Below, in pieces: positions 7,456-53,655 of a stretch of DNA of 64,000 nt. A program made the position numbers and the translations under genes. The notes under the pieces are model-generated. The model searched no databases, was not told the origin of the DNA, and saw nothing but the letters and a program-made list of their open reading frames with translations. The first letter of the stretch is position 1; each line of letters starts with the position of its first letter. The stretch covers positions 1,493,501 through 1,557,500 of the forward strand of contig NC_003063.2 in the NCBI RefSeq assembly GCF_000092025.1. The letters run 5' to 3'. The stretch comes from Agrobacterium fabrum str. C58 (GTDB taxonomy: Bacteria; Pseudomonadota; Alphaproteobacteria; Rhizobiales; Rhizobiaceae).

Positions 7456-7504
7456 GACCGTTAAGGGACGCGTTGATTGCGCGTCAGGCCTGGGAGGGGA
7501 ATGC

Positions 7505-23913: not shown

Positions 23914-24621
23914 CTAAACCTGGCTGGTTTCGCCCTCCGCCAGCTGGGCAAGGCCCGGCAGGTTGCAGACCAGAAGTTTCTGCCGCCCGCCCTGCACCAG
24001 ACCCTTGCTTTCCCAGCTGGAAAGAATGCGCGAAACGGTGTGCAGCGTCGTGCCGGTCATTTCGGCTATATCCTGACGCGAAATCGGGAAGTCGATACGG
24101 ATGCCGTCCAGTTCCTTGCGTCCCGCCTGTTGCGAAAGGCGCAGCACGGCATGGGCCACCCGGCGCTCCACTTCCTGCGTCGACATTTCGCGGATGCGCG
24201 TATGGGCTTCTTCAAGACGCTGGCCTATCGTCTGCATGGCGGAGACGGCAAGATGCGGGTTCTGTTCGACGAATTGCGGCCAGAGGTCCGTCTGCCAGGA
24301 TAGAATCACGCTTTCGGCCGCCGTCGTGGCGGTGCCGGGATAATCCGACCGTTGCAGCGCCCGGGCGAAGCCGAAGAGATCGCCGGGATGCACCATACGC
24401 ACGATGATCTGCTGGCCGTCATGGGTCACCTGCGTCACCTTCAGGCGGCCGTGTATGAGCAGGAAGAAATGCGCGGCGGACTGGCCCTGCTCGAAAATGG
24501 CCTCGCCCGGCGGCACCAGCCGGGATGTGGCGTGGGTCAGCAGTCCGTCCAGCTCATCGTCGGCCATCTTGGCAAACAAGGCCAGCGACCGGATGACGCT
24601 TCGGTCAATCTTCACTTGCAC
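23914..24621 (-). CDS. nnrR: NnrR, Crp/Fnr-family NO-responsive regulator
   Basis: A 235-residue regulator with an N-terminal cyclic-nucleotide-binding-like fold, a long dimer helix and a C-terminal HTH (SRQDIAEMTGTTLHTVSRILSSWE). It lacks the N-terminal cysteine cluster of Fnr, so it is not a classical oxygen sensor. Family and position beside nirK and nor identify it as NnrR, the activator of nitrite and NO reductase genes in alphaproteobacteria. An FNR-type box precedes it, and sites fitting its own recognition sequence lie across the island. Confidence 0.88.
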   Translation of the reverse strand: MQVKIDRSVIRSLALFAKMADDELDGLLTHATSRLVPPGEAIFEQGQSAAHFFLLIHGRLKVTQVTHDGQQIIVRMVHPGDLFGFARALQRSDYPGTATTAAESVILSWQTDLWPQFVEQNPHLAVSAMQTIGQRLEEAHTRIREMSTQEVERRVAHAVLRLSQQAGRKELDGIRIDFPISRQDIAEMTGTTLHTVSRILSSWESKGLVQGGRQKLLVCNLPGLAQLAEGETSQV

Positions 24622-27097: not shown

Positions 27098-27140
27098 TTT
27101 GCCTGTTCGCAAAGAAGCCGGACGGGCTTGCGTCTAGACA
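27098..27140 (+). promoter_or_regulatory. NnrR-type box and -10 for nnrS
   Basis: TTTGCCTGTTCGCAAA (27098-27113), with outer C/G extending the palindrome, is followed by TAGACA (27135-27140) 29.5 bp from the centre. The intergenic region thus has separate boxes for the divergent nirK and nnrS genes. Confidence 0.75.
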
Positions 27141-27169
27141 TATGTCAAGACCAAGCAAGGAGCACTATA

Positions 27170-28402
27170 ATGAGTGGCAGCGAAACCGTTCTCCCCCTAG
27201 GGCGCAGCCGGCCAAAGGGCGGCATTCCAAGAGGGCTGGCGCGCACCGGCCCGGTTATCTTTTCTTACGGCTTCCGGCCGTTTTTCCTCGGCGGCGCCCT
27301 CTGGGCCATCGTGGCGATGGTGTTGTGGATCGCAGCCCTTTCCGGCTTCATCGATATTGGCGGAGACTATGGCGCGCCGAACTGGCATGCCCATGAGATG
27401 CTGTTCGGTTTCGCTTCAGCGGTGCTGGCCGGCTTTCTCCTGACGGCTGTGCCGAACTGGACGGGGCGGCTGCCGGTGTCGGGCAAACCGCTGGTCTGGC
27501 TGTTTGCGCTCTGGTGCGCCGGCCGGCTTTTGCTGCTCGTGCCGGATCAGGTGGGCGTGGTCACCGCCGCAGCCGTCGACGGGCTGTTCCTGCCGGCGCT
27601 GCTGGCGATCTGCGCGCGCGAGGTTATTGCCGGACGCAAATGGAAGGACCTGAAGGTGCTGGGCGGGCTGCTGGCGCTTTCCGTCGCCAATATTGTTTTC
27701 CATGTGGCGGCGATTGGCGGCGATCACAGCCAGATGGCGACCCGCCTTGCCGTCTCGGCTTATACCGTGCTCGTCATCATCGTCGGTGGCCGCATCGTGC
27801 CGAGTTTCACCCGCAACTGGCTGAACCGTTTTGGCCGCACGGATTTTCCCGTGCCCTATAACGGCTTCGACACCGCCGCCATCCTCACCGGCATCGTGGC
27901 GCTTGCCGTGTGGACAATAGAGCCTGAGAGCATGCTGGCCGTGTCCACGGCGCTTCTGGCCGCGTTCATGCACGCTGTGCGTCTCATCCGCTGGCGCGGC
28001 TGGACGACCCGGCCGGAGCAGGTGCTGGTGGTGTTGCATGTGGCCTATGCCTTCATTCCCGTTGGGTTCATTGCCATCGCTCTGGCGGCTCTTGATGTCA
28101 TGGACACGCGCTCCGTCCTGCACATCTTCACCGTCGGCGTTATCGGCTGCATGATGCTTGCGGTGATGACGAGAGCGAGCCTTGGCCATACCGGACGCAA
28201 GCTCGCGGCTAGCAGGCTGACCATTGCAGCTTACGTATCTCTGATCGCCTGCGCGCTGCTGAGACCGGCAGCCGAGTTCCTTCCCGGCGTTATGATGCAT
28301 CTTTATGGCTGCTCGGCGCTTCTCTGGATCGTGGGTTTTGGTCTCTTCTGCGTCGAATACGGGCCGATCCTGATGCGCGAACGCAAACCGCTGAAAGCCT
28401 GA
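27170..28402 (+). CDS. nnrS: NnrS, heme- and copper-binding membrane protein
   Basis: A 410-residue integral membrane protein with about twelve hydrophobic segments and the family motif NWHAHEMLFGF near residue 65, whose histidines bind metal or heme in characterised NnrS proteins. NnrS is NO-induced and linked to tolerance of nitrosative stress. The ATG follows AAGGAG. Transcription ends at the bidirectional terminator 30 bases after the stop. Confidence 0.92.
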   Translation: MSGSETVLPLGRSRPKGGIPRGLARTGPVIFSYGFRPFFLGGALWAIVAMVLWIAALSGFIDIGGDYGAPNWHAHEMLFGFASAVLAGFLLTAVPNWTGRLPVSGKPLVWLFALWCAGRLLLLVPDQVGVVTAAAVDGLFLPALLAICAREVIAGRKWKDLKVLGGLLALSVANIVFHVAAIGGDHSQMATRLAVSAYTVLVIIVGGRIVPSFTRNWLNRFGRTDFPVPYNGFDTAAILTGIVALAVWTIEPESMLAVSTALLAAFMHAVRLIRWRGWTTRPEQVLVVLHVAYAFIPVGFIAIALAALDVMDTRSVLHIFTVGVIGCMMLAVMTRASLGHTGRKLAASRLTIAAYVSLIACALLRPAAEFLPGVMMHLYGCSALLWIVGFGLFCVEYGPILMRERKPLKA

Positions 28403-38870: not shown

Positions 38871-39386
38871 ATGAGACCTTTTCCCGCCGCCATCGCCACC
38901 CCGATGAATTTTCTGCCCCTTGCCGTGGTGCAGCGAGCGACGGCGGCGATGCTGGCACAGATCATGAAACGGCACCCGGATATGTTCGGCAGGCTCGGTG
39001 AACATAGCCGCAAGCGTTATGGCTTTCAGCCTGTCGATCTGCCTTTCGCCTTCATGGTCGAACCGGCACGTCCCGGCATCACCGTCAGCCGAAAGGGCCG
39101 CCTGCCGAAGGTGGATGCGGCGGTCGAAGGGCCGCTTTTCATGCTGCTGGCGCTGATGGAGGGGCGGCAGGATGCCGATGCGCTGTTCTTCTCGCGCGAT
39201 CTTGGTGTGACCGGCGACATGGAGGCGATGCTGGCGCTGCGTAATGCGCTTGACGATAGCGGCATCGACCTGCCGCGCGATCTCGGTGCCTTTGCCGGGC
39301 CTTTCGCGCCGGTGATAACGGGCCTTGCGAACCGGTTGCGTGGCCATGTTCTATCCGAAACGCGGGGAGGTGAGGCATGGAACTGA
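38871..39386 (+). CDS. ubiT: UbiT, SCP2-domain lipid-binding factor for O2-independent ubiquinone synthesis
   Basis: A 171-residue protein with an SCP2 sterol-carrier-like domain (FMVEPARPGITVSRKGRLPKVDAAVEGPLFMLLALMEGRQDADALFFSRDLGVTGD). UbiT binds polyprenyl quinone precursors and is needed for anaerobic ubiquinone synthesis in Escherichia coli and Pseudomonas. It overlaps ubiU by ten bases, and together with ubiUV it forms the complete three-gene set. Confidence 0.9.
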   Translation: MRPFPAAIATPMNFLPLAVVQRATAAMLAQIMKRHPDMFGRLGEHSRKRYGFQPVDLPFAFMVEPARPGITVSRKGRLPKVDAAVEGPLFMLLALMEGRQDADALFFSRDLGVTGDMEAMLALRNALDDSGIDLPRDLGAFAGPFAPVITGLANRLRGHVLSETRGGEAWN

Positions 39387-40354
39387 TCTGTCCGGCGGGC
39401 ACACCCGCCGCCTTCCGCGAGGCCGTGGATGCCGGGGCGGATGCCGTCTATTGCGGGTTCCGCGATGAAACCAATGCCCGCAATTTCCCCGGCCTCAATT
39501 TTTCGCGCGAAGAACTTGCCGAGGCCATCGCCTACGCGAAGAAACGCAGCGTGCAGACCTTCGTGGCGCTCAACACCTTCATGCGCGCCGGCAATGAGGA
39601 TATCTGGTATCGCGGCGCGGCCGATGCCGTGAAGGCGGGTGCGGACGCGCTGATCCTTGCCGATTTCGGCCTGATGGCGCATGTGGCGGAAAAACATCCG
39701 CAACAGCGCATTCACGTCTCCGTGCAGGCTTCCGCCTCCAATGCGGACGCGGTGAATTTCCTCGTTGATGCCTTCGGCGCGAAACGCGTTGTGCTGCCGC
39801 GCACTCTGACGATTCCCGACATCGCCCGGCTGGCGCGGCAAATCCGCTGCGAGATCGAGATCTTCGTATTCGGCGGCCTCTGTGTCATGGCGGAGGGGCG
39901 CTGCTCGCTTTCGTCTTACGCCACAGGCAAGTCACCCAATATGAACGGCGTCTGCTCGCCGGCAAGCCATGTGCGTTACCGGCAGGATGGGCGGGAGCTG
40001 GTGTCGGAACTCGGCGATTACACCATCAACCGCTTTCCGGAAGGAGAGGCGGCAGGTTACCCCACGCTGTGCAAGGGCCGTTTCGAGATTGCCGACGACA
40101 AGTCCTATGCCTTCGAGGACCCGGTATCGCTTGATGTGATGGACCAGATCGATGCCTTGCGCGACGCGGGCGTCAGCGCGCTGAAGATCGAGGGCCGCCA
40201 GCGCGGCAAGGCCTATGTGGCGGAAGTGGTTTCCACCCTGCACCGGGCGCTGGCCGCCAGCGCCGAAGAGCGGGGACGGCTGCTTTCACGCCTGCGGCTG
40301 TTAAGCGAAGGCCAGCGCACCACTGTCGGTGCTTACGAGAAACGCTGGAGATGA
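39377..40354 (+). CDS. ubiU: UbiU, U32-family Fe-S protein for O2-independent ubiquinone hydroxylation
   Basis: A 325-residue U32 'peptidase' family protein. Cys169, Cys176, Cys193 and Cys232 match the four 4Fe-4S ligands known in E. coli UbiU, at identical numbers. With UbiV it hydroxylates the ubiquinone ring without O2. The next gene overlaps by four bases. Confidence 0.94.
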   Translation: MELICPAGTPAAFREAVDAGADAVYCGFRDETNARNFPGLNFSREELAEAIAYAKKRSVQTFVALNTFMRAGNEDIWYRGAADAVKAGADALILADFGLMAHVAEKHPQQRIHVSVQASASNADAVNFLVDAFGAKRVVLPRTLTIPDIARLARQIRCEIEIFVFGGLCVMAEGRCSLSSYATGKSPNMNGVCSPASHVRYRQDGRELVSELGDYTINRFPEGEAAGYPTLCKGRFEIADDKSYAFEDPVSLDVMDQIDALRDAGVSALKIEGRQRGKAYVAEVVSTLHRALAASAEERGRLLSRLRLLSEGQRTTVGAYEKRWR

Positions 40355-41298
40355 TGGCGATGGCAAAAACCGCAAAGGCCACATTGGCGCTCGGCCCCGT
40401 CCTTTATCTCTGGCAGGGCGAGAAATGGCGCGATTTCTATTTTCGCATCGCCAATGAAGCGCCGGTCAGCCACGTCTATCTCGGCGAGACCGTCTGTTCA
40501 AAACGCTTCCATTTCACCGAGCCCCATCTGGCAGAGGTGATCGAGCGGCTGGAGGGTGCCGGAAAACAGGTGGTCCTCTCGACGCTTTCCCTGGTGACGC
40601 TGGAGCGGGAAAGCCGCCAGCTGCGCGGCCTGATCGCTGACAGCCCCTATCCCGTCGAGGCGAACGACCTTTCAGCACTCGGCATGCTGCACGGCACGCC
40701 GCATGTCGTCGGGCCGATGGTGAATGTCTATAATGCCGCAACCGCGCGGCTGCTCGCCTCGCGTGGGGCAAGCGCCATCTGCCTGCCGCCGGAACTGCCG
40801 GTCACCTCGGTGGAGCGCATCGTGGCGGAAACGCCTGACGTGGACTTCGAAATCTTTGCCTTTGGCCGCCTGCCGCTCGCCATTTCGGCGCGCTGCGCCC
40901 ATGCCCGCGCCAAGGGCAATATCAAGGATAATTGCCAGTTCGTCTGCGGCGACGATCCGGATGGGCTGCCGGTGCGCACGCTCGACCGGCAGTCTTTTCT
41001 GGCGTTGAACGGCGTGCAGACGGTGTCGCACACCTGCCAGTCGCTGCTTGGCGAGCTGCAGGATCTGGCCGCTGCCGGCATAGCGCGTTTTCGCCTGTCG
41101 CCACAGGATTGCGACATGGTGGCGGTGGCACGGATCCATGATGATGTTCTGGCCGAAAGGCGTGATGCGGAGGAAGGTCTCGTCCTTCTGCAACAAGCCT
41201 ATCCGGACGTGCCCTTTTCCAACGGTTTTCACCACGGGCAGGAAGGGGCAGCCTGGGTTGCCCGCGCCCGCAACACGGCGCATGGAGCCAACCTATGA
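40351..41298 (+). CDS. ubiV: UbiV, U32-family Fe-S protein partner of UbiU
   Basis: A 315-residue U32 family protein. Cys49, Cys182, Cys195 and Cys199 correspond to the four cluster ligands of E. coli UbiV; the spacing between the second and third is shorter (X12). It forms a heterodimer with UbiU. Its stop overlaps the start of the next small gene (ATGA), so four genes are coupled from ubiT onward. Confidence 0.93.
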   Translation: MMAMAKTAKATLALGPVLYLWQGEKWRDFYFRIANEAPVSHVYLGETVCSKRFHFTEPHLAEVIERLEGAGKQVVLSTLSLVTLERESRQLRGLIADSPYPVEANDLSALGMLHGTPHVVGPMVNVYNAATARLLASRGASAICLPPELPVTSVERIVAETPDVDFEIFAFGRLPLAISARCAHARAKGNIKDNCQFVCGDDPDGLPVRTLDRQSFLALNGVQTVSHTCQSLLGELQDLAAAGIARFRLSPQDCDMVAVARIHDDVLAERRDAEEGLVLLQQAYPDVPFSNGFHHGQEGAAWVARARNTAHGANL

Positions 41299-41672
41299 CG
41301 ATGAGCGGACAGGAACAGCAGGCACTCCCAGCACCGGGCGGCGCGGATATCGCGGCGGCGATCCATCTGGTGCGCGACGTTGTCTTACAGAGCGCGCTCG
41401 ATTGCGGCTGCCGCGACAAGGTGCACGAGGCCCTGCGCGAGCTCGAGGATTTCGAGCGCCAGCGCAACATCGTCAAGCTTCTGGCTGCCGCCCGTGAGGA
41501 GCGGCGCAAGATCGGACTTCTGACCGAGATGCTCGCTGATTTCGCCGAGGACGATACGGTCGATCAAGGTATCGTCGAAACCGCGAGCCTGATGTTTCTG
41601 GATATCGCCGCCGCCGCCCAGGAAGGCTCGCGAATTCTGCGTGACGCCCTGTCTCTTAAAACATGCAAATAA
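41295..41672 (+). CDS. Unknown 125-residue helical protein coupled to ubiV
   Basis: I do not recognise a family. The sequence is predicted largely helical (IAAAIHLVRDVVLQSALD, VHEALRELEDFERQRNIVKLLAAAREERRKIGLL, SLMFLDIAAAAQEGSRILRDAL), with two cysteines in DCGCRDK and one in the C-terminal KTCK. It has no signal peptide or membrane segment, so it is cytoplasmic. The four-base overlap with ubiV implies a stoichiometric partner in the ubiquinone complex or a regulator of it. Confidence 0.7.
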   Translation: MTMSGQEQQALPAPGGADIAAAIHLVRDVVLQSALDCGCRDKVHEALRELEDFERQRNIVKLLAAAREERRKIGLLTEMLADFAEDDTVDQGIVETASLMFLDIAAAAQEGSRILRDALSLKTCK

Positions 41673-41692: not shown

Positions 41693-41708
41693 TTTGATCG
41701 AGCGCAAA
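41693..41708 (+). promoter_or_regulatory. NnrR-type box before the TonB receptor operon
   Basis: TTTGATCGAGCGCAAA fits TTTG-N8-CAAA and lies 62 bases before the receptor start. At the class II distance the best hexamer is only TCATTC, so promoter geometry is less convincing than at the other sites. Confidence 0.55.
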
Positions 41709-41769
41709 GAGGCCGTTCTTGCAAAATGTCATTCCCGGTGCACGCAGAACATGACTGAAGGGGTGGCAT

Positions 41770-43923
41770 ATGCGGGGGCTGAAGGCTGGGTTTTTCACGA
41801 TAACGACAGGTCTGATGGCCGGGGTTTCCGGTGTTGCGCTGGCGCAATCGGCCACGCCGGGTTCGACCACGGTTCTGGAGAGGATCACGGTTGAGGGGAG
41901 CAGATGGGCGGATGGCGTGGAGCAGGCGCGAAAGCGGCTGAACGCCATTCCGGGTGGTGTTTCCGCGCTTCAGCCTCAGGACCGAACCTTGACTGCCGTG
42001 CCGACGCTTGCGGATGCACTTGCATCTGCGCCCGGCGTTGTCGTCCAGCGCTTTTTCGGCGGCAACGATCAGCCGCGCATTCAGATCAGGGGCTCCGGGC
42101 TGCAGCAGAACCCGGTCGAACGTGGCGTTCTGGTGCTGAAGGACGGGCTGCCGATCAACCGCGCCGATGGTTCTTACATCGTTGGGCTGGCCAATCCAGG
42201 TCAGGCCAGTCTCATAGAAATCTATCGCGGTTACACCGCCAACCGGCTGGGCGCCAGCGTGCTTGGCGGAGCGATCAATTTCGCTTCGCCGGTGGAGAAA
42301 GGAACCAGCATATCCGCCGGCGGCGGCAGCTTCGGGCAGGCGGACGCTTCCCTGCGCACCGGCTTCGATGCGGATCGCTTTGCAGCCGGCTTTTATGCCG
42401 ATGCCAGCCGCCGCGACGGTTATCGCGTCTATAATGAATCACGCCGGTTAAGCGTTGGAGGGGTGATCGAGGCGGATGTGTCCGACACGGTCAAAACCCG
42501 TGTCTTTGCCAGCTATACCGATCTTGGTTTCGACGTGGCAGGCCCCCTGACGAAAAGTGCCATGGATGCCGACCCACGGCAGGTTTCGCCCGGTCCGCCA
42601 ATCAGCCTCGGCCCGAATGTGACGCGTGACAAACCGCGCCGGGAAGCGAGTCAGTTCGTCATCGGTTCGCGCAGCTCGATCGAACTCGGCGATCATCTGT
42701 TCGATATCGGGCTGGGTTACACCTATACCAGGGACATGTTCCGTTTCCCTGTCTCGAGCGGCGTGCGGCGTACAGATGGCGGTGATGTGACGGGGCTTCT
42801 GCGTTATGCCTACCAGCCCGATGCCGATGCGCTGCTGCCGCTGTTCGAGGCGTCTGCGCTTTATACGGTCGGATCGGCGGAACGCACCTATCATATCAAC
42901 CGGGCAGGGGGCGATGGTCCGGCCTTTTCCAGCAACGATCTCGATGCGTCGACGCTATCCTTGAATGTGGGCCTGAACGTCCCGCTTTCGGAAACGCTCA
43001 CGTTGTCGCCATCGCTTTCCTATACCCACGCCACCCGTGACAATGAGGACCTCTGGCGGGCCGCGGGTCGGCCGCGGCTGAGCTTCGGACCGGGTGGCGC
43101 AGTCGCCTCTTCGGTGGCCGCCGTGGATACGAGCTATGAGCGCAGCTATAGCGGATGGTCGCCGGCGCTCGGCATCAGCTGGCGGCCGGGTGACAGCGAC
43201 ATGTTGTTTGCCGCCGTCAGCCGCAGTTTCGAGCCGCCGACCCATGACGATCTTCTCGGCACCACCGGCGGCACGCCGAACGCCTCGCCCACCGGCTTTT
43301 CGACGCCCGATCTTAAGGCACAGACCGCCACCACGGTTGAAATCGGCTGGCGCGGCGAGCGCGGCTCCTGGAATATCGACGCCACCGCCTATTATTCCTG
43401 GGTGGAGAACGAATTGCTCAGCCTGCGCGACAGCAGCGGTTCGCTGCTCTCCGCCTTCAACGCGGATGAAACCGTTCATGCCGGTCTGGAATTTGGCGTT
43501 TCTGGTGAGGTGCTGGATGGCCTGACCGCCCGTCTCGCTTATGTGCTGCAGGATTTCCTCTTCCGGGACGATCCGGTGCGCGGTGATAACCGGCTGGCCG
43601 GTGCGCCGCGCCAGGTCGTCAATCTCGCCGTACAATATGCCCTTTTCGAACAGTGGGATATCGGCGCGGTGCTGCAATGGGTCCCGTCCAAGACACCGGT
43701 CGATAACATGAACACCCTGTATGCCGATCCCTATGCGGTGGTCGATCTGCGGACCGAATATCGTGTCAATGACAGGTTCTCGGTCTATGGCGCCGTCACC
43801 AACGTCTTCGACAAGACCTACGCCTCCTCCACACTCATTCTCGATGAGGCAAGCGCCGGTCAGGCGGTCTATCTGCCGGGCGACGGACGCGGATTTTATG
43901 CCGGTATCAAGGCGCGTTTCTGA
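41770..43923 (+). CDS. TonB-dependent outer-membrane receptor, substrate unknown
   Basis: A 717-residue receptor with a signal peptide ending GVALA (about residue 24), a TonB-box-like segment (VLERITVEG), a plug domain (TLADALASAPGVVVQRFFGG, IQIRGSGLQQNPVERGVLVLKDGLPIN, GASVLGGAINF) and a 22-strand barrel ending in AGIKARF. Its operon partners are a NitT/TauT-type ABC importer and an NnrS-like protein, not a siderophore permease, so the ligand may not be a classical ferric siderophore. An NnrR-type box lies upstream. Confidence 0.92.
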   Translation: MRGLKAGFFTITTGLMAGVSGVALAQSATPGSTTVLERITVEGSRWADGVEQARKRLNAIPGGVSALQPQDRTLTAVPTLADALASAPGVVVQRFFGGNDQPRIQIRGSGLQQNPVERGVLVLKDGLPINRADGSYIVGLANPGQASLIEIYRGYTANRLGASVLGGAINFASPVEKGTSISAGGGSFGQADASLRTGFDADRFAAGFYADASRRDGYRVYNESRRLSVGGVIEADVSDTVKTRVFASYTDLGFDVAGPLTKSAMDADPRQVSPGPPISLGPNVTRDKPRREASQFVIGSRSSIELGDHLFDIGLGYTYTRDMFRFPVSSGVRRTDGGDVTGLLRYAYQPDADALLPLFEASALYTVGSAERTYHINRAGGDGPAFSSNDLDASTLSLNVGLNVPLSETLTLSPSLSYTHATRDNEDLWRAAGRPRLSFGPGGAVASSVAAVDTSYERSYSGWSPALGISWRPGDSDMLFAAVSRSFEPPTHDDLLGTTGGTPNASPTGFSTPDLKAQTATTVEIGWRGERGSWNIDATAYYSWVENELLSLRDSSGSLLSAFNADETVHAGLEFGVSGEVLDGLTARLAYVLQDFLFRDDPVRGDNRLAGAPRQVVNLAVQYALFEQWDIGAVLQWVPSKTPVDNMNTLYADPYAVVDLRTEYRVNDRFSVYGAVTNVFDKTYASSTLILDEASAGQAVYLPGDGRGFYAGIKARF

Positions 43924-43941
43924 ACGCGGAAAGGACTGACC

Positions 43942-44925
43942 ATGACCAGTTACACACGACGCCGGGCGCTGTCGCTGCTTTCCGGGTTGACCGTTGCGAG
44001 CCTTGCCGCGCCATCGATCCTGAGGGCCGAAGCTCCATTTGTCTTTTACGGTCCACCCGCAGCACCCTCGGCCGTGCTGGCCCATGCGGTAAAAGGCGGG
44101 TTCCTGAAGGATGTTGCGCCTGAGGCCGTCTTCAAGGCCTGGAAAACCCCGGACGAGATGCGCGCCGCCGTTGCCTCCGGCTCGATGGGGGCGGTGGTGA
44201 TGCCGAGCTACGGCGCTGCCAATCTGCATAATCGCGGCCTCGGCCTTGGGCTTCTGAACGTGCTGACCACCGGTCTGCTCTATGTGGTGTCGAAGGACGA
44301 AACGCTGACGTCGCTGGAAAGCCTTTCCGGCAAGACGCTCGCTCTGCCGTTCAAGAACGATATGCCCGATTTCGTCTTGCGCCGGCTGGTCGCTGAAAAA
44401 GGCTTGAAGCCCGGCGATATCAAGCTGGAATATGCCGCCTCGCCACCGGAGGCCGTGCAATTGCTGCTGACGGGCAGGGTGGATGCTGCGCTGCTGAGCG
44501 AACCGGCCGCAACTGCGGTGCTGATCAAGGCAAAGTCGTTTTTCATGACCGCTCATCGCACCATCGACATCCAGCAGGATTGGGCGAAGGTGGCGGGCAA
44601 GCCCGAAATCCCGCAGGCGGGGCTCGCCCTGACCTCGCAGGTTCAGGAAAAGCTCGGCAAGGCTGGCATTGGGGCCTTGCAGGCGGGCGTGGAAGCGGCG
44701 CTTGCCAGCGCTCTAGCGGATCCGCAAAGGGCGGCGGCGGCCGCCGCCGATGCCCTCGGTTTCCCGGCGGAGATCATCGCTGCCTCCTTTCCGACGAGCC
44801 ATTTGTCGGCGTTGAAGGCGAGCGCCGCACGCGCCGATCTCGAGGCATTTTACGATGAACTCGCCAAGGCGCACCCGGCCATCATCGGCGGTCGGCGGCC
44901 GGATGACGGCTTTTATCTGGTGTAG
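43942..44925 (+). CDS. NitT/TauT-type ABC substrate-binding protein
   Basis: A 327-residue protein with a twin-arginine-type signal (YTRRRALSLLSGLTVASLAAPSILRA). It has the SsuA/NrtA-like fold: AVLAHAVKGGFLKDVAPEAVFKAWKTPDEMRAAVASGSMGAVVMPSYGAAN, LTSLESLSGKTLALP and EAVQLLLTGRVDAALLSEPAATAV. A Tat signal would suit a protein folded around a cofactor or metal. The ligand is unknown; nitrate, taurine, sulfonates and thiamine precursors are known for the family. Confidence 0.88.
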   Translation: MTSYTRRRALSLLSGLTVASLAAPSILRAEAPFVFYGPPAAPSAVLAHAVKGGFLKDVAPEAVFKAWKTPDEMRAAVASGSMGAVVMPSYGAANLHNRGLGLGLLNVLTTGLLYVVSKDETLTSLESLSGKTLALPFKNDMPDFVLRRLVAEKGLKPGDIKLEYAASPPEAVQLLLTGRVDAALLSEPAATAVLIKAKSFFMTAHRTIDIQQDWAKVAGKPEIPQAGLALTSQVQEKLGKAGIGALQAGVEAALASALADPQRAAAAAADALGFPAEIIAASFPTSHLSALKASAARADLEAFYDELAKAHPAIIGGRRPDDGFYLV

Positions 44926-44930
44926 CAGGC

Positions 44931-45740
44931 ATGAACCGCATTCTTGAAAGCCTTGGCTGGACGGGTCGCTATCTCTGGGCGGGCTGGGCCGGGCTATCAG
45001 GCATTTTCTGTTTTCTCGCCGCCTGGCAGGCCGGCCATGAGATTTATGGCTCCTTCATCCTGCCTTCGCCGGGTGAGACTTTCGCGGCGATCGGGCTTCT
45101 GGCGGCGCGGCCGGATTTTTTCGCGATCCTGTCGCAGAGCGCCGTCAGGGCGCTGACGGGTTTTGCCATCGCCGCCGGCATCGGCACGGTGGCGGGTGTG
45201 CTGGCCGGTTACTCCTTCGCGGCCATGCGGCTGATGAAGCCTGTCGTCACCGTCCTCCTCGGCGTGCCGCCCATCGGCTGGATTGTGCTGGCGCTCATCT
45301 GGTTCGGCTCGTCGGGTGGCACGGCCATCATGACCGTGGTCATCGCCTCCGCCCCGGTTTCTTTCGCTGGCGCGCTGGAAGGTGTCGCCAAGCGGGACCG
45401 GCAGCTGGAGGTGATGGCGCAGGCTTTCGGCGCCCCATGGTTCTACCGCCTGCGCACGGTCACCATGCCGCATGTTCTCTCCTATCTCTTCCCGGCCTGG
45501 ACGACGACGGCCGGCAGCGCCTGGAAAGTGACCGTCATGGCCGAGCTTCTGTCGAATTCCGGCGGCATTGGCGGCGAACTGGCAACCGCGAGGGCGCTGT
45601 TCGATATCGCCCAGGTCAGCGCCTGGCTCACCATCACGGTCGGCCTTGCCTTGCTGACCGATTACGGCCTGCTGCATCTGCTGCGCGAAGCGCTGGAACG
45701 CTGGCGCGCCGCCGGGCTGCCATGGGGTGTCAAACGATGA
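44931..45740 (+). CDS. NitT/TauT-type ABC permease
   Basis: A 269-residue inner-membrane permease of the SsuC/TauC/NrtB family with about six helices. It has LPSPGETFAAIGLLA near the N-terminus and a coupling EAA-like loop, EVMAQAFGAPWFYRLRTVTMP. It begins five bases after the binding-protein stop and overlaps the ATPase gene. Confidence 0.9.
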   Translation: MNRILESLGWTGRYLWAGWAGLSGIFCFLAAWQAGHEIYGSFILPSPGETFAAIGLLAARPDFFAILSQSAVRALTGFAIAAGIGTVAGVLAGYSFAAMRLMKPVVTVLLGVPPIGWIVLALIWFGSSGGTAIMTVVIASAPVSFAGALEGVAKRDRQLEVMAQAFGAPWFYRLRTVTMPHVLSYLFPAWTTTAGSAWKVTVMAELLSNSGGIGGELATARALFDIAQVSAWLTITVGLALLTDYGLLHLLREALERWRAAGLPWGVKR

Positions 45741-46489
45741 GCGACCATTTTGCCCTCAGTTTCGAACAGGTCGGCCACGCCTTTCTCGGCCGCAGCCTGT
45801 TTGAGAATTTCGATCTGAGCATCGCGCCGGGGGAAACCGTTGCGCTGCTCGGCCCTTCCGGCAGCGGCAAGACGACGATTTTGCAGATCGCGGCCGGTAT
45901 CATCGATCCCGTTCGCGGCCGGGTACAGCGCAATTACCGCCGGCAGGGGCTGGTGTTTCAGGAACCGCGGCTGCTGCCATGGATGACATTGATCGACAAT
46001 ATCGCCTACGGGCTTGCGGCAGTCGGCATACCGAAACGGCTGCGGCGGGAGATCGTGGCGCAGTTTGCCCTGGAAGTTGGTCTGGAAGAGACGGATTTTC
46101 ACAAATATCCGGTCGAGCTTTCCGGCGGCATGCGCCAGCGTGCCGGGGTGGCGCGGGCGCTCGCCGTGGAGCCGGATATGCTGTTTCTGGACGAACCCTT
46201 CAGTGCCGTCGATGTCGGCCTGCGCCGGCATTTGCAGGAACTTCTGGTGGATGCCGCTCGCAGGCGTGGTTTTTCCACGCTTCTCGTCACCCATGATCTT
46301 CATGAAGCGCTGTTGGTGGCCGACAGGCTGATCGTGCTCTCGGGCGTCGATGGCCGCGTTGTTGCCGCGCATACTCCGGACGGTTCGCCGGGGCGACGCA
46401 TGGCGCGCGCGGTGTTCGACGAGGTGGAATTCCTGTCCGAAAGCCCGGCTTTCGCTGAATTGTTTTCGGCAAAGGAGCGGATGCGATGA
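45737..46489 (+). CDS. NitT/TauT-type ABC ATPase
   Basis: A 250-residue ATPase starting MSDHFALSFEQVGHAFLGRSLF. Walker A is GPSGSGKTT, the signature LSGGMRQR, and Walker B LFLDEPFSAVD. Family relatives are SsuB, TauB and NrtD. The ATG overlaps the permease stop, and the next gene overlaps its stop, so the operon is tightly coupled. Confidence 0.92.
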   Translation: MSDHFALSFEQVGHAFLGRSLFENFDLSIAPGETVALLGPSGSGKTTILQIAAGIIDPVRGRVQRNYRRQGLVFQEPRLLPWMTLIDNIAYGLAAVGIPKRLRREIVAQFALEVGLEETDFHKYPVELSGGMRQRAGVARALAVEPDMLFLDEPFSAVDVGLRRHLQELLVDAARRRGFSTLLVTHDLHEALLVADRLIVLSGVDGRVVAAHTPDGSPGRRMARAVFDEVEFLSESPAFAELFSAKERMR

Positions 46490-47673
46490 GGCAACCACCA
46501 ATTCTTTCGGAAGCTTTGCGGTTGTTTTTCCCTCTGGCCGCCCTGCATGGCGCGGTCTGGCCGTTTTTGTGGATTGTCATCGGCGGCTACGCCTTACCTT
46601 TCGCCAATGCCGTTCCGCCCTCGCAATGGCATGCCCATGAAATGATTTTCGGCACCTATGGCATGGCGCTCGCTGGTTTTCTCGGTTCGGCAGTGCCTGA
46701 ATGGACCGATACGAAAGCGGCGGCGGGCCGCACGCTGCTTTGTCTCGCCGGCCTCTGGCTGCCGGGCCGCCTGATCGGTTTCGTGGGGGCGGATACGTGG
46801 AGCCTGCTGGCGGGCTTTTTTGATCTGGCGTTTCTGCTCGCGCTCTCCGTCCTTATCGGCAAGGCGATGCTGGTGCGGCGAACGACGAAACATCTGGCGT
46901 TCCTCGTCTGGCTCATTCTGTTTGCGGCGGCGGAGACGGGCGTGCGCTACGCCTGGTGGATGGGTGATCTGGAATTCGCGGTCCGCTGTCTGGAGGCGGC
47001 GCTGTGCATCTTCATCGTGCTTTTCTCGCTCTCGGCCGCGCGCATCAACGTCGTCGTCATCAATCTGGCGCTCGATCCAAGCGGCGAGACCACGCCTTAC
47101 CGGCCACATCCCGGACGCCAGCATATGGCGGGTGCCATGGTGACGCTGTACATGGCAGCAAAACTTCTGTTTCCGGAAAGCGACGTCTGCGCCTGGCTGG
47201 CGCTTGCGGCCGGTGCCGCGTTTTTCGACCGGCTGGCCGAATGGTTCATCGGCCGCGCCGTCTTCAGGACCGAGGTCCTGTTGCTGGCGCTCGGCAATGC
47301 CTTTGCCGGGGCGGGATTTCTGGCGCTCGGGGCGACGCGGCTCGGCTTTTCCGTTACGTCTGCCGCAGGGCTGCACCTGCTGTCGGTCGGCGCGCTTGGC
47401 TGCGCCATTATGGCCGTCTTCATCATTGCCGGGCTACGGCACACCGGACGCGATCTGAAACATCTGCCCTGGCAGGCGCATGCAGCGGCTGCCCTGATGG
47501 TGATGGCAGGGCTCACCCGTATCCTGCCCGAATTCGATGTCGCAGCAGTCCTGTCACCCTATCATCACGGCCTCAGTGCTATCCTGTGGGCTGCGAGTTT
47601 CGGCATCTGGCTTCAGGGCTTCCTGCCCTTCATGCGCGCGCCTGGCACCGACGAGGCCGGCGCGTGTGGTTGA
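46486..47673 (+). CDS. NnrS-family membrane protein, second copy
   Basis: A 395-residue membrane protein with about twelve helices and the NnrS motif QWHAHEMIFGTYGMALAGF near residue 46, the same metal/heme-binding histidines as in nnrS at 27170. Sequence divergence between the two copies is large. It closes an operon of receptor, binding protein, permease and ATPase, linking that importer to NO or heme/copper handling. Confidence 0.88.
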   Translation: MRQPPILSEALRLFFPLAALHGAVWPFLWIVIGGYALPFANAVPPSQWHAHEMIFGTYGMALAGFLGSAVPEWTDTKAAAGRTLLCLAGLWLPGRLIGFVGADTWSLLAGFFDLAFLLALSVLIGKAMLVRRTTKHLAFLVWLILFAAAETGVRYAWWMGDLEFAVRCLEAALCIFIVLFSLSAARINVVVINLALDPSGETTPYRPHPGRQHMAGAMVTLYMAAKLLFPESDVCAWLALAAGAAFFDRLAEWFIGRAVFRTEVLLLALGNAFAGAGFLALGATRLGFSVTSAAGLHLLSVGALGCAIMAVFIIAGLRHTGRDLKHLPWQAHAAAALMVMAGLTRILPEFDVAAVLSPYHHGLSAILWAASFGIWLQGFLPFMRAPGTDEAGACG

Positions 47674-47798: not shown

Positions 47799-47838
47799 TT
47801 GATAAATAATCAATAAAATCAAATGGTTGAATATTCAA
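47799..47838 (+). promoter_or_regulatory. AT-rich palindromes upstream of nap
   Basis: TTGATAAATAATCAA (47799-47813) is an FNR-like box with one extra base in the spacer. TTGAATATTCAA (47827-47838) is a perfect 12-bp palindrome. Both lie in a markedly AT-rich stretch before napE, unlike the surrounding DNA. No good -10 at activator spacing was found. Confidence 0.45.
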
Positions 47839-47883: not shown

Positions 47884-48069
47884 ATGCCTAAAATAGTCGC
47901 GCCTCTACACGCGGATGGAAAGCCGAGCCGGACGAAGGAGCTTATTACCTTCGCCGTTCTGGCCTTTGGAATCTGGCCTGTGCTGGCGGTCGGATTTGTC
48001 GGAGCCTTTGGCTTCATCGTCTGGATGTTCCAGATCATTTACGGGCCGCCGGGCCCCCCCGGCCATTGA
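47884..48069 (+). CDS. napE: NapE, small membrane component of periplasmic nitrate reductase
   Basis: A 61-residue protein with one membrane helix (FAVLAFGIWPVLAVGFVGAFGFIVWMFQ) and the family end FQIIYGPPGPPGH. NapE is of unclear function and is typically first in the alphaproteobacterial operon. Confidence 0.93.
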   Translation: MPKIVAPLHADGKPSRTKELITFAVLAFGIWPVLAVGFVGAFGFIVWMFQIIYGPPGPPGH

Positions 48070-48076
48070 GGGCGAA

Positions 48077-48577
48077 ATGACGATGGACGTCTCACTCAGC
48101 CGGCGCGATTTTCTGCGCGGCGGACAGAAACGGGAAATGCGTATCTGTCCCCCCGGGGTCGCGTTGAGCGACCTCGCCGCCTGCAGCGGTTGCGCAAAAT
48201 GCGTTGAAGCCTGTCCCACCGGCATCATCACCATGGTAGGCGGTTTGCCTTCGGTGAATTTCTCTGCCGGGGAGTGCACATTTTGCGGCAAGTGCGCGCA
48301 AGCCTGTCCCGAGCCGGTTTTTGCGACGCCTGACGCACATAGCTTCGATCACGTCATGGCGATCGGCGAGGGGTGTCTCGCTTTTGGCAATGTCGATTGC
48401 CAGGCCTGCCGCGATGCCTGCCCGACCGAGGCTATCCGGTTTCGTCCCCGCCGCGGCGGCCCCTTCGTGCCCGCGCTTGTCGAGGATGCCTGCACCGGCT
48501 GCGGGGCCTGCGTGTCCGTCTGCCCAGTCGGTGTGATCAAGATCAAGGAAACAGCCAGGGAGACGCAATATGCCTGA
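48077..48577 (+). CDS. napF: NapF, cytoplasmic ferredoxin-type maturation protein
   Basis: A 166-residue protein starting SLSRRDFLRGG, with cysteine clusters for several 4Fe-4S centres (CSGCAKCVEACP, CTFCGKCAQACP, CQACRDACP, CTGCGACVSVCP). NapF interacts with NapA and supports its Fe-S cluster assembly in the cytoplasm. It overlaps napD by eight bases. A start six bases downstream is also possible. Confidence 0.93.
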   Translation: MTMDVSLSRRDFLRGGQKREMRICPPGVALSDLAACSGCAKCVEACPTGIITMVGGLPSVNFSAGECTFCGKCAQACPEPVFATPDAHSFDHVMAIGEGCLAFGNVDCQACRDACPTEAIRFRPRRGGPFVPALVEDACTGCGACVSVCPVGVIKIKETARETQYA

Positions 48578-48857
48578 GAATACAGGCCGATATCATGTCT
48601 CAAGCGCTGTGGTTGCGGTGATGCCCCAGATGCGGGACGCCGTGTTTGCAACGCTTCTGACGCTCGACAATGTCGAGGTTCACGGCGAGGGCAACGGCAA
48701 AATCGTGATCGTCATAGACGGCAAGAGCACCGGCATGCTGGGCGACACGCTCACTTATATTTCGACACTCGACGGTGTGATTGCCGCCAACATGGTTTTC
48801 GAACACGTCGATACAGAGGAGACAGGCGGCGATGAGCAGCGAACTGACGCGGCGTAA
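48570..48857 (+). CDS. napD: NapD, chaperone of the NapA Tat signal
   Basis: A 95-residue protein with the NapD fold: [43 protein letters not shown] and a C-terminal [22 protein letters not shown]. It binds the NapA twin-arginine signal until the molybdenum cofactor is in place. Its end overlaps napA by 26 bases. Confidence 0.92.
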
Positions 48858-51336
48858 TCTATTGAAGGCGCATGCTGCCGGCATTGCGGCGGCAACGGCG
48901 GGCATTGCGCTGCCGGCCGCCGCCCAGCCGGTGCCGGGCGGTGTTTCCGCATTGCAGATCAAATGGTCCAAGGCGCCCTGTCGTTTCTGCGGCACGGGTT
49001 GCGGCGTCATGGTCGGCGTCAAGGAAGGCAAGGTCGTTGCCACCCATGGCGACATGCAGGCGGAGGTCAATCGTGGCCTCAACTGCATCAAGGGCTATTT
49101 CCTCTCCAAGATCATGTATGGCAAGGACCGCCTCGAGACCCCGCTTCTGCGCAAGAAAAACGGCGTCTACGCCAAGGATGGCGAGTTCGAGCCTGTCAGC
49201 TGGGACGAGGCCTTCGACGTGATGGCGCAGCAATGCAAGCGCGTGCTGAAGGAAAAGGGACCGACGGCCGTCGGCATGTTCGGTTCCGGCCAATGGACGA
49301 TCTTCGAAGGTTATGCCGCGACCAAGCTGATGCGCGCCGGCTTCCGCTCCAACAATCTCGACCCCAATGCCCGCCACTGCATGGCGTCGGCCGCTTATGC
49401 CTTCATGCGCACCTTCGGCATGGATGAGCCAATGGGCTGCTACGACGATTTCGAACATGCCGATGCCTTCGTGCTCTGGGGCTCGAACATGGCGGAGATG
49501 CACCCCATTTTGTGGACCCGCATCGCCGACCGGCGTCTGGGTTTCGACCATGTGAGGGTGGCGGTGCTTTCGACCTTCACCCATCGCAGCATGGATCTTG
49601 CCGATATCCCCATGGTCTTCAAGCCGGGCACGGATCTCGTCATCCTCAATTACATCGCCAACCACATCATCAAGACCGGCCGCGTCAACGAAGACTTCGT
49701 GAGGAACCACACGAAATTCGTGCGCGGCGTCACCGATATCGGTTATGGCCTGCGGCCAGACGATCCGGTTGAGGTGAATGCCGCCAATTCTGCCGATCCG
49801 ACCAAGACGGAAGCGATCGATTTCGAGACCTTCAAGGAATTTGTCTCCGAATACACGCTGGAAAAAACCGCCGCCATGACCGGGGTGGAAGCCGGCTTCC
49901 TGGAGGAACTGGCCGAGCTTTATGCCGACCCGAAACGCAAGGTCATGTCGCTCTGGACCATGGGTTTCAACCAGCATGTCCGCGGCGTCTGGGCCAACCA
50001 GATGGTCTACAACATCCATCTTTTGACCGGAAAGATTTCCGAGCCCGGCAACAGTCCGTTCTCGCTCACCGGCCAGCCCTCAGCCTGCGGCACGGCGCGT
50101 GAAGTGGGAACCTTCGCCCACCGCCTGCCGGCCGACATGACGGTGACCAACCCGGAACACCGCAAACATGCCGAGGAAATCTGGCGCATTCCGCATGGCA
50201 TCATCCCGGAAAAGCCGGGTTACCACGCCGTGCAGCAGGACCGCATGCTGCATGACGGCAAGCTGAATTTCTACTGGGTGCAGGTCAACAACAACGTCCA
50301 GGCCGGCCCCAACACCAAGAACGAGACCTATCTGGGTTATCGCAACCCGGAAAACTTCATCGTGGTTTCGGATGCCTATCCGACCATCACCGCCATGAGC
50401 GCCGATCTCATCCTGCCCGCCGCCATGTGGGTGGAGAAGGAGGGGGCCTATGGCAATGCCGAGCGGCGCACCCATGTCTGGCACCAGCTGGTGGAGGCCT
50501 CGGGCGAGGCGCGTTCCGACCTCTGGCAGCTGGTGGAGTTTTCCAAGCGTTTCACCACCGACGAGGTATGGCCGGCCGAAATACTCGACGCCAATCCCGC
50601 CTATCGCGGCAAGACGCTTTACGAGGTGCTCTACAAGGACAGCGATGTCGGCAAGTTCCCGCTGAGCGAAATCAACGCCGACTACAAGAACCAGGAATCC
50701 AGTGATTTCGGCTTCTATCTGCAGAAGGGCCTGTTTGAGGAATATGCTGCTTTCGGGCGCGGCCACGGCCACGATCTGGCGCCTTACGATGCCTATCACG
50801 AGGTGCGCGGCATGCGCTGGCCTGTCGTCGATGGCAAGGAAACGCTGTGGCGTTACCGCGAGGGTTACGACCCCTATGTCAAACCCGGCGAGGGTGTGAA
50901 GTTCTACGGCAACAAGGACGGCAGGGCGGTCATCATCGCCGTGCCTTACGAGCCGCCGGCGGAATCTCCCGACCAGGAATTCGATACGTGGCTGGTGACG
51001 GGCCGGGTGCTGGAGCACTGGCATTCCGGTTCCATGACCATGCGCGTACCGGAACTCTACAAGGCGTTTCCCGGCGCCCGCTGTTTCATGAATGCCGATG
51101 ATGCGCGCAAGCGCGGGCTCAATCAGGGCGCGGAAATCCGCATCGTCTCGCGGCGCGGGGAAATCCGCTCGCGGGTGGAAACGCGTGGCCGCAACCGCAT
51201 GCCGCCCGGCGTCATCTTCGTTCCCTGGTTCGATGCCAGCCAGCTGATCAACAAGGTGACGCTTGACGCAACCGATCCCATCTCCAAGCAGACGGATTTC
51301 AAGAAATGCGCAGTCAAGATAGAGCCAGTCGCATGA
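48832..51336 (+). CDS. napA: NapA, catalytic subunit of periplasmic nitrate reductase
   Basis: An 834-residue molybdoenzyme reducing nitrate to nitrite in the periplasm. The Tat signal is [17 protein letters not shown]. The 4Fe-4S ligands are Cys50, Cys53, Cys57 and Cys85, and the Mo ligand is Cys183 in ARHCMASAA. Downstream segments match bis-MGD-binding domains to the C-terminus. The ATG at 48832 gives the Tat signal at the right position; an earlier in-frame start is inside napD. Confidence 0.97.
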
Positions 51337-51797
51337 TCAGGAAACACGGATGGATCGCCGCCACGCTTCTGGTTGTGGCTCTTGCGACGGGGGCCGTTGC
51401 GCAGATGGTGCCGGAACTGTCCGGCCCGCGCGGCGATGCCATGAAGACCGAGCCGGCCAAACCGCTGCCGAAATGGGTGATTGACGACTTCCGGCGCATG
51501 CGTGCCTATCCGGAACAGCCGCCGGTCATCCCGCATTCGATTGACGGCTACCAGCTGTCGGTCAATGCCAATCGCTGTCTGTCCTGTCACAAACGCGAAT
51601 TCACGCAGGATTCCGGTGCGCCGATGATCAGCGTCACCCATTACATGACGCGGGAAGGCCAGATGCTGGCGGATGTTTCGCCAAGGCGTTATTTCTGCAC
51701 CGCCTGCCATGTGCCGCAGGCCGATACGCGGCCGCTCGTGCCCAACACGTTCGAGGACATGAGCACGATGGGCGTGAAACCGGCGGGTAGCGAATGA
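51333..51797 (+). CDS. napB: NapB, diheme cytochrome c subunit
   Basis: A 154-residue exported protein with a signal peptide ending AVAQ (about residue 24) and two heme motifs, C82-L-S-C-H86 and C122-T-A-C-H126. It transfers electrons from NapC to NapA. It overlaps napA by four bases. Confidence 0.96.
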
Positions 51798-52495
51798 TGA
51801 TTGCCCGTATCAAAAAACTCTTCATCTGGCTCTGGGCGGTTCTGACCACGCCGGCGGGTACGCTCAGCCTCGCCTTCCTGACGCTTGGCGGTTTCGTCGG
51901 CGGGGTGATGTTCTGGGGCGCCTTCAACACGGCGCTGGAAATGACCAACAAGGAAGCCTTCTGCATTTCCTGCCACGAGATGCGCGCCAATGTTTATGAA
52001 GAACTGACCCGGACGGTGCATTTCTCCAACCGCTCCGGCGTGCGTGCTTCCTGTCCGGATTGCCATGTGCCGCACGAATGGACCGACAAGATTGCCCGCA
52101 AGATGCAGGCTTCCAAGGAAGTCTGGGGCAAGATTTTCGGCACCATCGACACCCGCAAGAAATTCCTCGACAAACGGCTGGAGCTTGCCCAGCACGAATG
52201 GTCGCGCCTGAAGGCCAATGACAGCCTGGAATGTCGCAATTGCCACTCCTCTGTCGCCATGGACTTTACCAAACAGACGCAGCGCGCCGCCGATATTCAT
52301 TCGAAATATCTGCTGACGGGCAAGGCCACCTGCATCGATTGCCACAAGGGCATCGCGCATGAGCTGCCGAACATGGAAGGCATCGACCCCGGCTGGAAAA
52401 TGCCGCCGGCGCTCAACGATGAACCGGGACAGACGGCGTCCGCGGTCGATGATCTGCGCCGGGCGATGAGCGATGTGCACCGGAACGTGTTCTGA
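51794..52495 (+). CDS. napC: NapC, membrane-anchored tetraheme quinol dehydrogenase
   Basis: A 233-residue NapC/NirT-family cytochrome with one N-terminal membrane anchor (residues 10-42) and four CXXCH motifs at 57-61, 87-91, 147-151 and 180-184. It oxidises ubiquinol and feeds NapB. Ubiquinone made by the ubi genes of this island would be its substrate. It overlaps napB by four bases and ends the operon. Confidence 0.96.
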
Positions 52496-53402: not shown

Positions 53403-53655
53403 GGGTTCCTGTTCTGCCGCCGGCCGACACGACACTTGCCGGCGCGCCATGATCATCCGTCAAAACGCTGACAAAGGCATGACGCTCGCCGGAAGCCGCC
53501 ATTAACCTTACCGGCGGAAACCGATGGCGGGCATGGGAAAACGCTATGGCGGATTTACAGTTTGTTAAGAAATCGTCATCCGGGCGTTAGTCCGCATCTC
53601 TAATCGTGACGCCATGGCCTCAGGGCCACCCCGTTTCACGAAAAAGGCCAAAGAG

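Follow-up and report, generated by a model that had tools for sequence, protein, structure and literature searches.

What does an operon carry into the cell when it joins a TonB-dependent receptor and a NitT/TauT-type ATP-binding cassette (ABC) importer to a gene for NnrS, and what is NnrS doing there? The question is raised by a 64,000-nucleotide stretch of Agrobacterium fabrum str. C58 (contig NC_003063.2, positions 1,493,501 to 1,557,500; hereafter the window), in which genes for a receptor, a periplasmic binding protein, a permease, an ATPase and a second NnrS (NnrS2) follow one another in that order, between ubiT-ubiU-ubiV with a 125-aa open reading frame (ORF) on one side and napF-napA-napB-napC on the other. 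An earlier reading made from the letters alone (the sequence-only reading) had called this composition unusual, linked it to nitric oxide (NO) and proposed uptake of a large or scarce ligand such as a copper or haem chelate. We find that the ABC genes and NnrS recur together as a core to which the receptor is an optional add-on. Tentatively, and with less than even confidence, we read the module as a high-affinity importer, induced by low oxygen or NO, of a small, scarce, iron-linked ligand (haem-derived or an iron chelate), with NnrS as its dedicated membrane partner.

The five genes are packed as closely as had been claimed: gaps of 18 and 5 bp separate the receptor from the binding protein and the binding protein from the permease, and the permease-ATPase and ATPase-NnrS2 pairs each overlap by 4 bp. 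On sequence grounds they are predicted to form one operon. Families were assigned by Pfam gathering cut-offs and NCBIfam curated cut-offs (Table 1), and the Pfam families confirm the parts of the unusual composition. An NMT1-type binding protein, a BPD_transp_1 permease and an ATPase in one operon make this a NitT/TauT importer in the broad sense, and NnrS2 lies far above the threshold for its family. The binding protein begins with MTSYTRRRALSLL, in which the RR pair, presumably a Tat signal, is invariant across 59 aligned relatives. The whole would be a binding-protein-dependent ABC importer with an optional TonB receptor; aromatic sulfate-ester uptake in Pseudomonas reportedly pairs a TonB receptor with a NitT/TauT ABC transporter, so that the pairing is unusual, not unprecedented. 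Each part belongs to a known family; we know of no earlier instance of the combination or of a dedicated NnrS. The open-access literature bore out the earlier statement that no such system had been described: among the matches listed, and in the portions of those texts available, neither an NnrS-ABC nor an NnrS-ABC-receptor module is described, and the available portions of PMC6710368, PMC1274295, PMC4417242, PMC9409073, PMC6769254, PMC8610252, PMC4999443, PMC10256816 and PMC12124388 do not describe the module.

Whether receptor, importer and NnrS stay together in other genomes bears directly on this composition, and the core proved to be conserved far beyond close relatives, so that the gene set withstood the conservation check proposed with the sequence-only reading. 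Counts of module loci refer to the best 80 named loci of 352 relatives, obtained by a scan of species-representative genomes; most are alphaproteobacterial (Agrobacterium, Shinella, Afipia, Bradyrhizobium, Bosea, Devosia, Paracoccus, Rhodobacter, Roseibium, Hyphomicrobium and Rhodopseudomonas, among others). This set is biased towards NnrS-linked members because the query alignment (A1) was made from binding proteins linked to NnrS, and its loci are not independent, several Agrobacterium, Bosea and Afipia being among them. Genes in unannotated loci were called by simple ORF scripts, and clusters of neighbours are rough. NnrS follows the binding protein, permease and ATPase genes in 78 of the 80 loci, and both misses (L086 and L106) lie at contig ends. 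The search of the same genus covered 36 other genomes: 11 have the binding protein at 83% identity or more, and 1 more has a fragment of it.

At E <= 1e-40, the binding protein was detected in at least 50 of 397 genomes sampled from the order and in at least 10 of 398 sampled from the phylum, seven of the latter outside the order; these counts, like those for cNorB and the receptor in the order sample, are lower bounds, with only the top candidates per genome scored. NnrS lies downstream of the ABC genes in 18 of 28 order-sample loci (27 plus that of A. fabrum itself) and not in the other 10 (G133, G096, G338, G406, G211, G349, G318, G213, G063 and, at a contig end, G108); more distant relatives often occur without NnrS. 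The seven genomes outside the order yielded eight stretches, of which L173 and L176 hold the four core genes in order, L177 holds them with three small ORFs interposed, and the remaining five stretches are incomplete or have another arrangement.

The NnrS proteins of these loci fall into two groups. In a midpoint-rooted tree of 147 NnrS sequences from module loci, with some genomes represented twice, 105 of the 107 ABC-coupled proteins lie on one side of the root together with 2 uncoupled ones, and the other side holds 26 tandem and 12 further ordinary NnrS together with L130 and L175, the 2 remaining coupled proteins. Support is 0.999 for the clade of ordinary NnrS, but monophyly of the ABC-coupled proteins is unsupported (0.37); ABC-coupled NnrS forms a largely separate branch. 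NnrS2 is 41-59% identical to eight coupled proteins and 25-30% to four further ones, and unlike ordinary NnrS, to four aligned examples of which (ordinary or tandem) it is 26-29% identical, it follows an ABC operon. It shares with them the Pfam family and the residues H49, H297, H319 and R95, which are invariant across 17 aligned proteins of both kinds. The A. fabrum genome (5.67 Mb, 4 contigs) has two NnrS matches, both in the window. A Rosetta-type fusion of ATPase and NnrS was also considered and rejected: the single in-frame case, in Devosia indica (L131:10605-12347), looks like a deletion and not like evidence, because the ATPase has lost its C terminus and NnrS roughly its first 90 residues.

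The receptor is the variable part. A receptor of the window type is found near the module in 43 of the 80 loci and an OprC-like one, here called TBDR2, in 3; profiles found neither type near 34, a few of which (e.g. L116 and L158) have less than 2 kb of upstream sequence. A search of 13 genomes of the genus at E <= 1e-40 left 9 without a window-type receptor at any position, and seven of these, all Agrobacterium (G026, G011, G014, G034, G018, G007 and G023), retain an intact ABC-NnrS core; the remaining two are G003, where the contig ends, and G005. The operon of G005 (L072) is decayed, with permease and ATPase nearly whole, the binding protein partial and NnrS split. The receptor is therefore an optional add-on and NnrS the constant partner, and the loci that manage without a receptor speak against a necessarily large ligand, size having been one of the options in the sequence-only reading. 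The position of the receptor gene varies as well: it interrupts the core between permease and ATPase in Azospirillum brasilense and lies nearby in other positions in Paracoccus and Cereibacter.

In a plasmid collection, 19 of 23 receptor matches lie near a binding-protein match by comparison of coordinates and 2 more lie beside module genes by annotation; the other two are in Bartonella HY329, which is outside the comparison, and in a Prevotella record without such a binding protein. The order sample has at least 8 strong receptor matches (53% identity or more), 5 beside the module and 3 elsewhere, with two at 31-33% excluded. The window receptor has no cysteine and carries the plug signature FFGGNDQPRIQIRGSGLQQNPVERG...DGSY, which in the form FFG.NDQPR..IRGSG.Q.NP..RG...DGSY is present in 53 loci examined, some genomes twice, including those of Prevotella, L191 and L192. 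The signature is not strict, the receptor-bearing loci L042, L182 and L193 deviating from it.

An NnrR-type box had been claimed upstream of the operon, and it was found again: TTGATCGAGCGCAA is the sole exact match to TTGATN4CGCAA in the window and begins 76 bp ahead of the receptor ATG. It is a TTG-N8-CAA type palindrome at promoter distance, as expected of an FNR/FixK/NnrR-type site, and it recurs at related promoters. When up to 350 bp upstream of the binding-protein or receptor gene were surveyed, with starts set by profile alignment, a strict box was present in 45 of the 80 loci, compared with 0.9% of shuffled regions and 2 of 80 coding controls; 35 loci have no strict box upstream. Within the window the relaxed pattern is mildly enriched, with 5 matches against 1.74 expected and 3 of 100 shuffles reaching 5, and a second match, TTGCGCTGGCGCAA at 41834-41847, falls within the signal-peptide codons of the receptor and is probably a coincidence. 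The box owes its strong support to recurrence in other genomes, not to enrichment in the window. The forms found at module loci agree with the NnrR consensus (PMC1274295) and with a nos-associated site (PMC6710368), as given in the available parts of these papers; the latter lists for the Bradyrhizobium diazoefficiens operon blr0314-blr0320 (nos genes) the site TTGATCCAGCGCAA, which shares the form of TTGATCGAGCGCAA. The accessible text of PMC1274295 also places nnrS in the NsrR, DNR, NnrR and NorR regulons.

The module also keeps company with denitrification genes. The window encodes nirK, NnrU, a CRP/FNR-type regulator at approximately 23914-24621 and a cNorB-like protein of the COX1 family that is 88% identical to our cNorB query, a name that rests on gene order and on the RefSeq names of genes in that order in two annotated plasmids. 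We searched for cNorB in 46 of the 80 loci, omitting 29 metagenome-assembled genomes and 5 further Agrobacterium; the result covers 45 isolates, 34 of which have it, compared with at least 69 of 397 order-sample genomes (thresholds of 1e-40 and 1e-60, respectively). Within the order sample, divided by a manual tally into groups of 18, 10 and 369 genomes, cNorB occurs in 11 of the 18 with NnrS-linked loci, in 3 of the 10 whose loci have no NnrS and in 55 of the 369 others (Fisher p = 2e-5 for the first against the last, uncorrected for kinship); 22 of the 369 have a binding-protein match whose wider locus is outside the tally.

These observations are compatible with the following scheme. An FNR/FixK/NnrR-type activator would switch the operon on during nitrate respiration. 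TonB drives uptake at the outer membrane, and binding-protein-dependent ABC transporters import with ATP; the receptor, where present, would thus carry a scarce ligand across the outer membrane, and the Tat-exported binding protein would pass it to the permease and ATPase for transfer to the cytoplasm. The ABC-coupled NnrS may be a dedicated inner-membrane partner that protects or processes the imported ligand, a role suggested by the strict gene linkage. An iron-linked ligand would be needed because NO depletes usable iron. We infer that the ligand is small because the core without a receptor is common, scarce because a receptor is present, and useful under nitrate respiration or NO because of the box and the neighbours; it is probably iron-linked because of some neighbours and because an ordinary NnrS is reported to relieve stress from iron-NO complexes, according to the available part of PMC10256816.

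The neighbours in question come from a survey of iron genes that covers 11 annotated plasmids, 3 of which have iron- or haem-type transporters near the module. That of Cereibacter azotoformans carries hutW, hutX, FeoA and iron/haem-type ABC genes, Martelella sp. NC18 an iron-type ABC transporter, and Bartonella sp. HY328 an iron-type ABC transporter and a second TonB-dependent receptor. Homologues of the window receptor that stand apart from the module have comparable company: in Prevotella a haemoglobin-type receptor above the NCBIfam cut-off, with five ORFs between, and in L191 a hemin-like receptor below the cut-off. In Cereibacter, Prevotella and L191, genes of the kind seen in haem uptake clusters (hmu, hut) thus lie near the module or a receptor homologue. 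The module differs from such clusters in that its receptor in the window falls far short of the hemin cut-off, and haem ABC transporters use another type of binding protein than NMT1. The haem part of the earlier proposal is therefore possible, as is iron more generally, on weak neighbourhood evidence.

Several findings weigh against an iron-linked ligand or its tie to denitrification. The receptor is below every curated cut-off, including those for TonB-siderophore (133.6 bits compared with 223.5) and TonB-hemin (TIGR01785, 101.3 compared with 316.85), and we know of no NitT/TauT-type ABC transporter that carries iron or haem. No iron/haem uptake transporter is named within 9 kb of the module (7 kb for L197) in 8 of the 11 annotated plasmids. 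In two Martelella plasmids pseudoazurin is annotated just upstream, which favours copper. Finally, 11 of the 45 module isolates have no cNorB, and NO reduction by cNor is therefore not required.

Unlikely, though the strongest of the alternatives, is uptake of a small organic redox cofactor, or of a precursor, whose synthesis needs oxygen; the receptor would scavenge it for cells unable to make their own. Small organic anions are the usual ligands of NitT/TauT binding proteins, and the operon sits with ubiTUV and sometimes hemN, which replace oxygen-dependent steps; rough clustering places ubiU-like genes in approximately 27, ubiD in 22 and hemN in 10 of the 80 loci, the last cluster being taken as hemN and not hutW because RefSeq gives that name to the gene in two annotated plasmids. 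By a wide margin, the nearest solved receptor is YncD/PqqU of Escherichia coli, an importer of pyrroloquinoline quinone (PQQ), with E = 4e-34 compared with 5e-14 for the next, and its plug and C-terminal barrel align with the window receptor. However, the latter scores 92.7 bits against a cut-off of 1200, and the signature residue Y99 of PqqU, for which F or W is allowed (PMC12124388, available portion), aligns with an invariant proline, P115. The region of R304 and R365 falls outside the stretches aligned by HMMER. In addition, the PQQ enzymes that matter here are periplasmic, so that an ABC step would be unneeded for PQQ. Uptake of PQQ in the manner of PqqU was rejected on the Y99 signature.

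Still less likely, in our estimation, is a role in supplying NirK, pseudoazurin and N2O (nitrous oxide) reductase with copper, imported as such or as a chelate; NnrS, as a copper and haem protein, would receive or handle the copper. NnrS is listed as a cuproprotein in the accessible part of PMC6769254. Besides the Martelella pseudoazurins, Bosea (L097) has a plastocyanin/azurin-family gene close to the module, its cluster occurring in 5 of the 80 loci, and the TBDR2 of other loci gives its best matches to TonB-copper (174-232 bits, cut-off 472) and OprC. As far as the text of PMC8610252 is available, the copper site of OprC consists of C143, M147, H323 and M325 (a CxxxM-HxM motif), and the related NosA is tied to denitrification in Pseudomonas stutzeri JM300 and disputed in another strain. 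An OprC-type site cannot form in either receptor because the window receptor has no cysteine and TBDR2 has no CxxxM in 8 of 8 cases. HxM strings occur in 6 of these 8, not where the profile aligns H323 and M325. The window receptor scores 24.6 bits to TonB-copper, and no Cys, His or Met is invariant in the binding protein. Copper by the OprC mechanism, the other half of the chelate proposal, is accordingly unsupported by the receptor sequence.

TBDR2 itself aligns to OprC from residue 207 onward only, by profile, and the Pfam Plug domain was undetected in those of L043 and L048, the two tested; a plug-less barrel would be an open pore or be closed in some other way. Such barrels stand beside module genes at L048:14552-16477, L049:10861-12837, L051:3043-5025 and L058:11074-13029, and further ones at L043:5648-7657, L046:10255-12216, L174:7017-8903 and L177:9962-11881.

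We consider it improbable that the module is an ordinary sulfonate- or taurine-type nutrient importer under anoxic control, its link to NO being purely regulatory. Like TauABC, SsuABC and NrtABC, it has a binding protein, a single permease gene and an ATPase of the same Pfam families, and its ABC proteins score highest against taurine, sulfonate and related models. These scores are nevertheless far under the cut-offs (TauA, TIGR01729, 23.4 bits compared with 304.25; TIGR01728, 34.7 compared with 163.5; TIGR01183, 48.7 compared with 209.05; TauB, PRK11248, 174.6 compared with 357), and those systems have neither NnrS as a constant partner nor, as is often the case here, a TonB receptor. A system against nitrosative damage, whose ABC transporter would import an NO adduct or nitrosylated small molecule and whose NnrS would remove the NO, could draw on the NnrS coupling, the NO-type box and the Rrf2, DUF1971, hemerythrin and NnrU genes near the module in several taxa, but it is very improbable, as a TonB receptor would be odd in it and we know of no ABC transporter that imports NO adducts.

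Some receptor homologues have a different companion. An S-adenosylmethionine methyltransferase gene directly follows that of the receptor in L191 (3917-4747) and L192 (10255-11070), which belong to one genus, and in Prevotella (L195:11063-11839). The binding protein is absent from all three at E <= 1e-8, with one replicon only covered for Prevotella. A search for the methyltransferase covered seven genomes or records; it turned up in these three but neither in G349 nor in G000, G400 and G231, the last three being carriers of ABC-NnrS. In this small sample, methyltransferase and ABC-NnrS are two alternative companions of one receptor type. An exception is L058, which has a methyltransferase homologue (7458-8246) and ABC-NnrS both.

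Table 1. Predicted features of the window, with positions counted from its first nucleotide.
Feature	Position	Strand	Basis
FNR/FixK/NnrR-type box TTGATCGAGCGCAA	41694..41707	+	exact TTGATN4CGCAA match
TonB-dependent receptor, 717 aa, plug present	41770..43923	+	PF07715 + PF00593
Periplasmic binding protein, 327 aa, NitT/TauT (NMT1) family, Tat-type RR signal	43942..44925	+	PF13379, PF12974, PF09084
NitT/TauT-type ABC permease, 269 aa	44931..45740	+	PF00528; NCBIfam matches all under cut-offs
ABC ATPase, 250 aa	45737..46489	+	PF00005; TauB-like, 174.6 bits vs cut-off 357
ABC-coupled NnrS (NnrS2), 395 aa	46486..47673	+	PF05940, 262.1 bits vs cut-off 28
125-aa ORF between ubiV and operon	41295..41672	+	conserved in genus; overlaps ubiV by 4 bp
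ubiT, ubiU, ubiV (oxygen-independent ubiquinone synthesis), upstream	38871..41298	+	NF047962, NF047963, NF047965 over cut-off
napF, napA, napB, napC (periplasmic nitrate reductase), downstream	47915..52495	+	TIGR00402; TIGR01706, TIGR02161 over cut-off; PF03892
Other, ordinary NnrS	27128..28402	+	PF05940, 393 bits; 29% identical to NnrS2

Around the operon, the 125-aa ORF has no Pfam or NCBIfam match and is present in 10 of 11 same-genus loci examined, the decayed L072 being the one without it; because of its overlap with ubiV, it is probably part of the preceding ubiTUV transcription unit. Upstream of napF, at 47799-47813, lies TTGATAAATAATCAA, an FNR-like palindrome whose spacer is five bases long and not four. 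Downstream of nap, 53614-59586 encodes a 1990-aa protein with RTX calcium-binding repeats and cadherin-like and Ig-like domains. An Rfam scan of the window at gathering scores gave no match, and control by a riboswitch was rejected on that ground. In other genomes, an Rrf2-type regulator gene adjoins the module in two Martelella, one Chelatococcus and one Paracoccus plasmid. A small cluster of Rrf2 regulator, FmdE-like and DUF1971 genes adjoins the module in Paracoccus (L188:7483-8816), its FmdE match being just under the cut-off, and Bosea (L097:5085-5726) has similar ORFs by the module (clusters 18, 30 and 44), the FmdE-like one without a Pfam match. Shinella has ctaD/coxB near the module. 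Five distant binding protein-ABC operons (L052, L053, L059, L060 and L073), in which NnrS was not seen, stand beside [FeFe]-hydrogenase-like and pyridine-nucleotide oxidoreductase-like genes; these neighbour families were checked in L059 and, in the others, by similar ORF ends.

The activity of NnrS is a long-standing question in denitrification, and its presence beside an importer operon in nearly all module loci recasts its role as a question of transport that can be approached by ligand binding. It is possible, if doubtful, that one branch of the NnrS family is a working part of an ABC importer, the NitT/TauT pump delivering its ligand to NnrS in the inner membrane or needing NnrS to process it. 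Were that so, the module would represent an importer of a new kind, NnrS would have its first role in transport, and a receptor family with one plug signature, spanning Alphaproteobacteria and Prevotella, would take up one ligand that is handled by either ABC-NnrS or a methyltransferase. Should the ligand be a scarce cofactor or metal source, nitrate respiration in soil- and plant-associated bacteria could be limited by how much of it is available, and their release of N2O could be affected.

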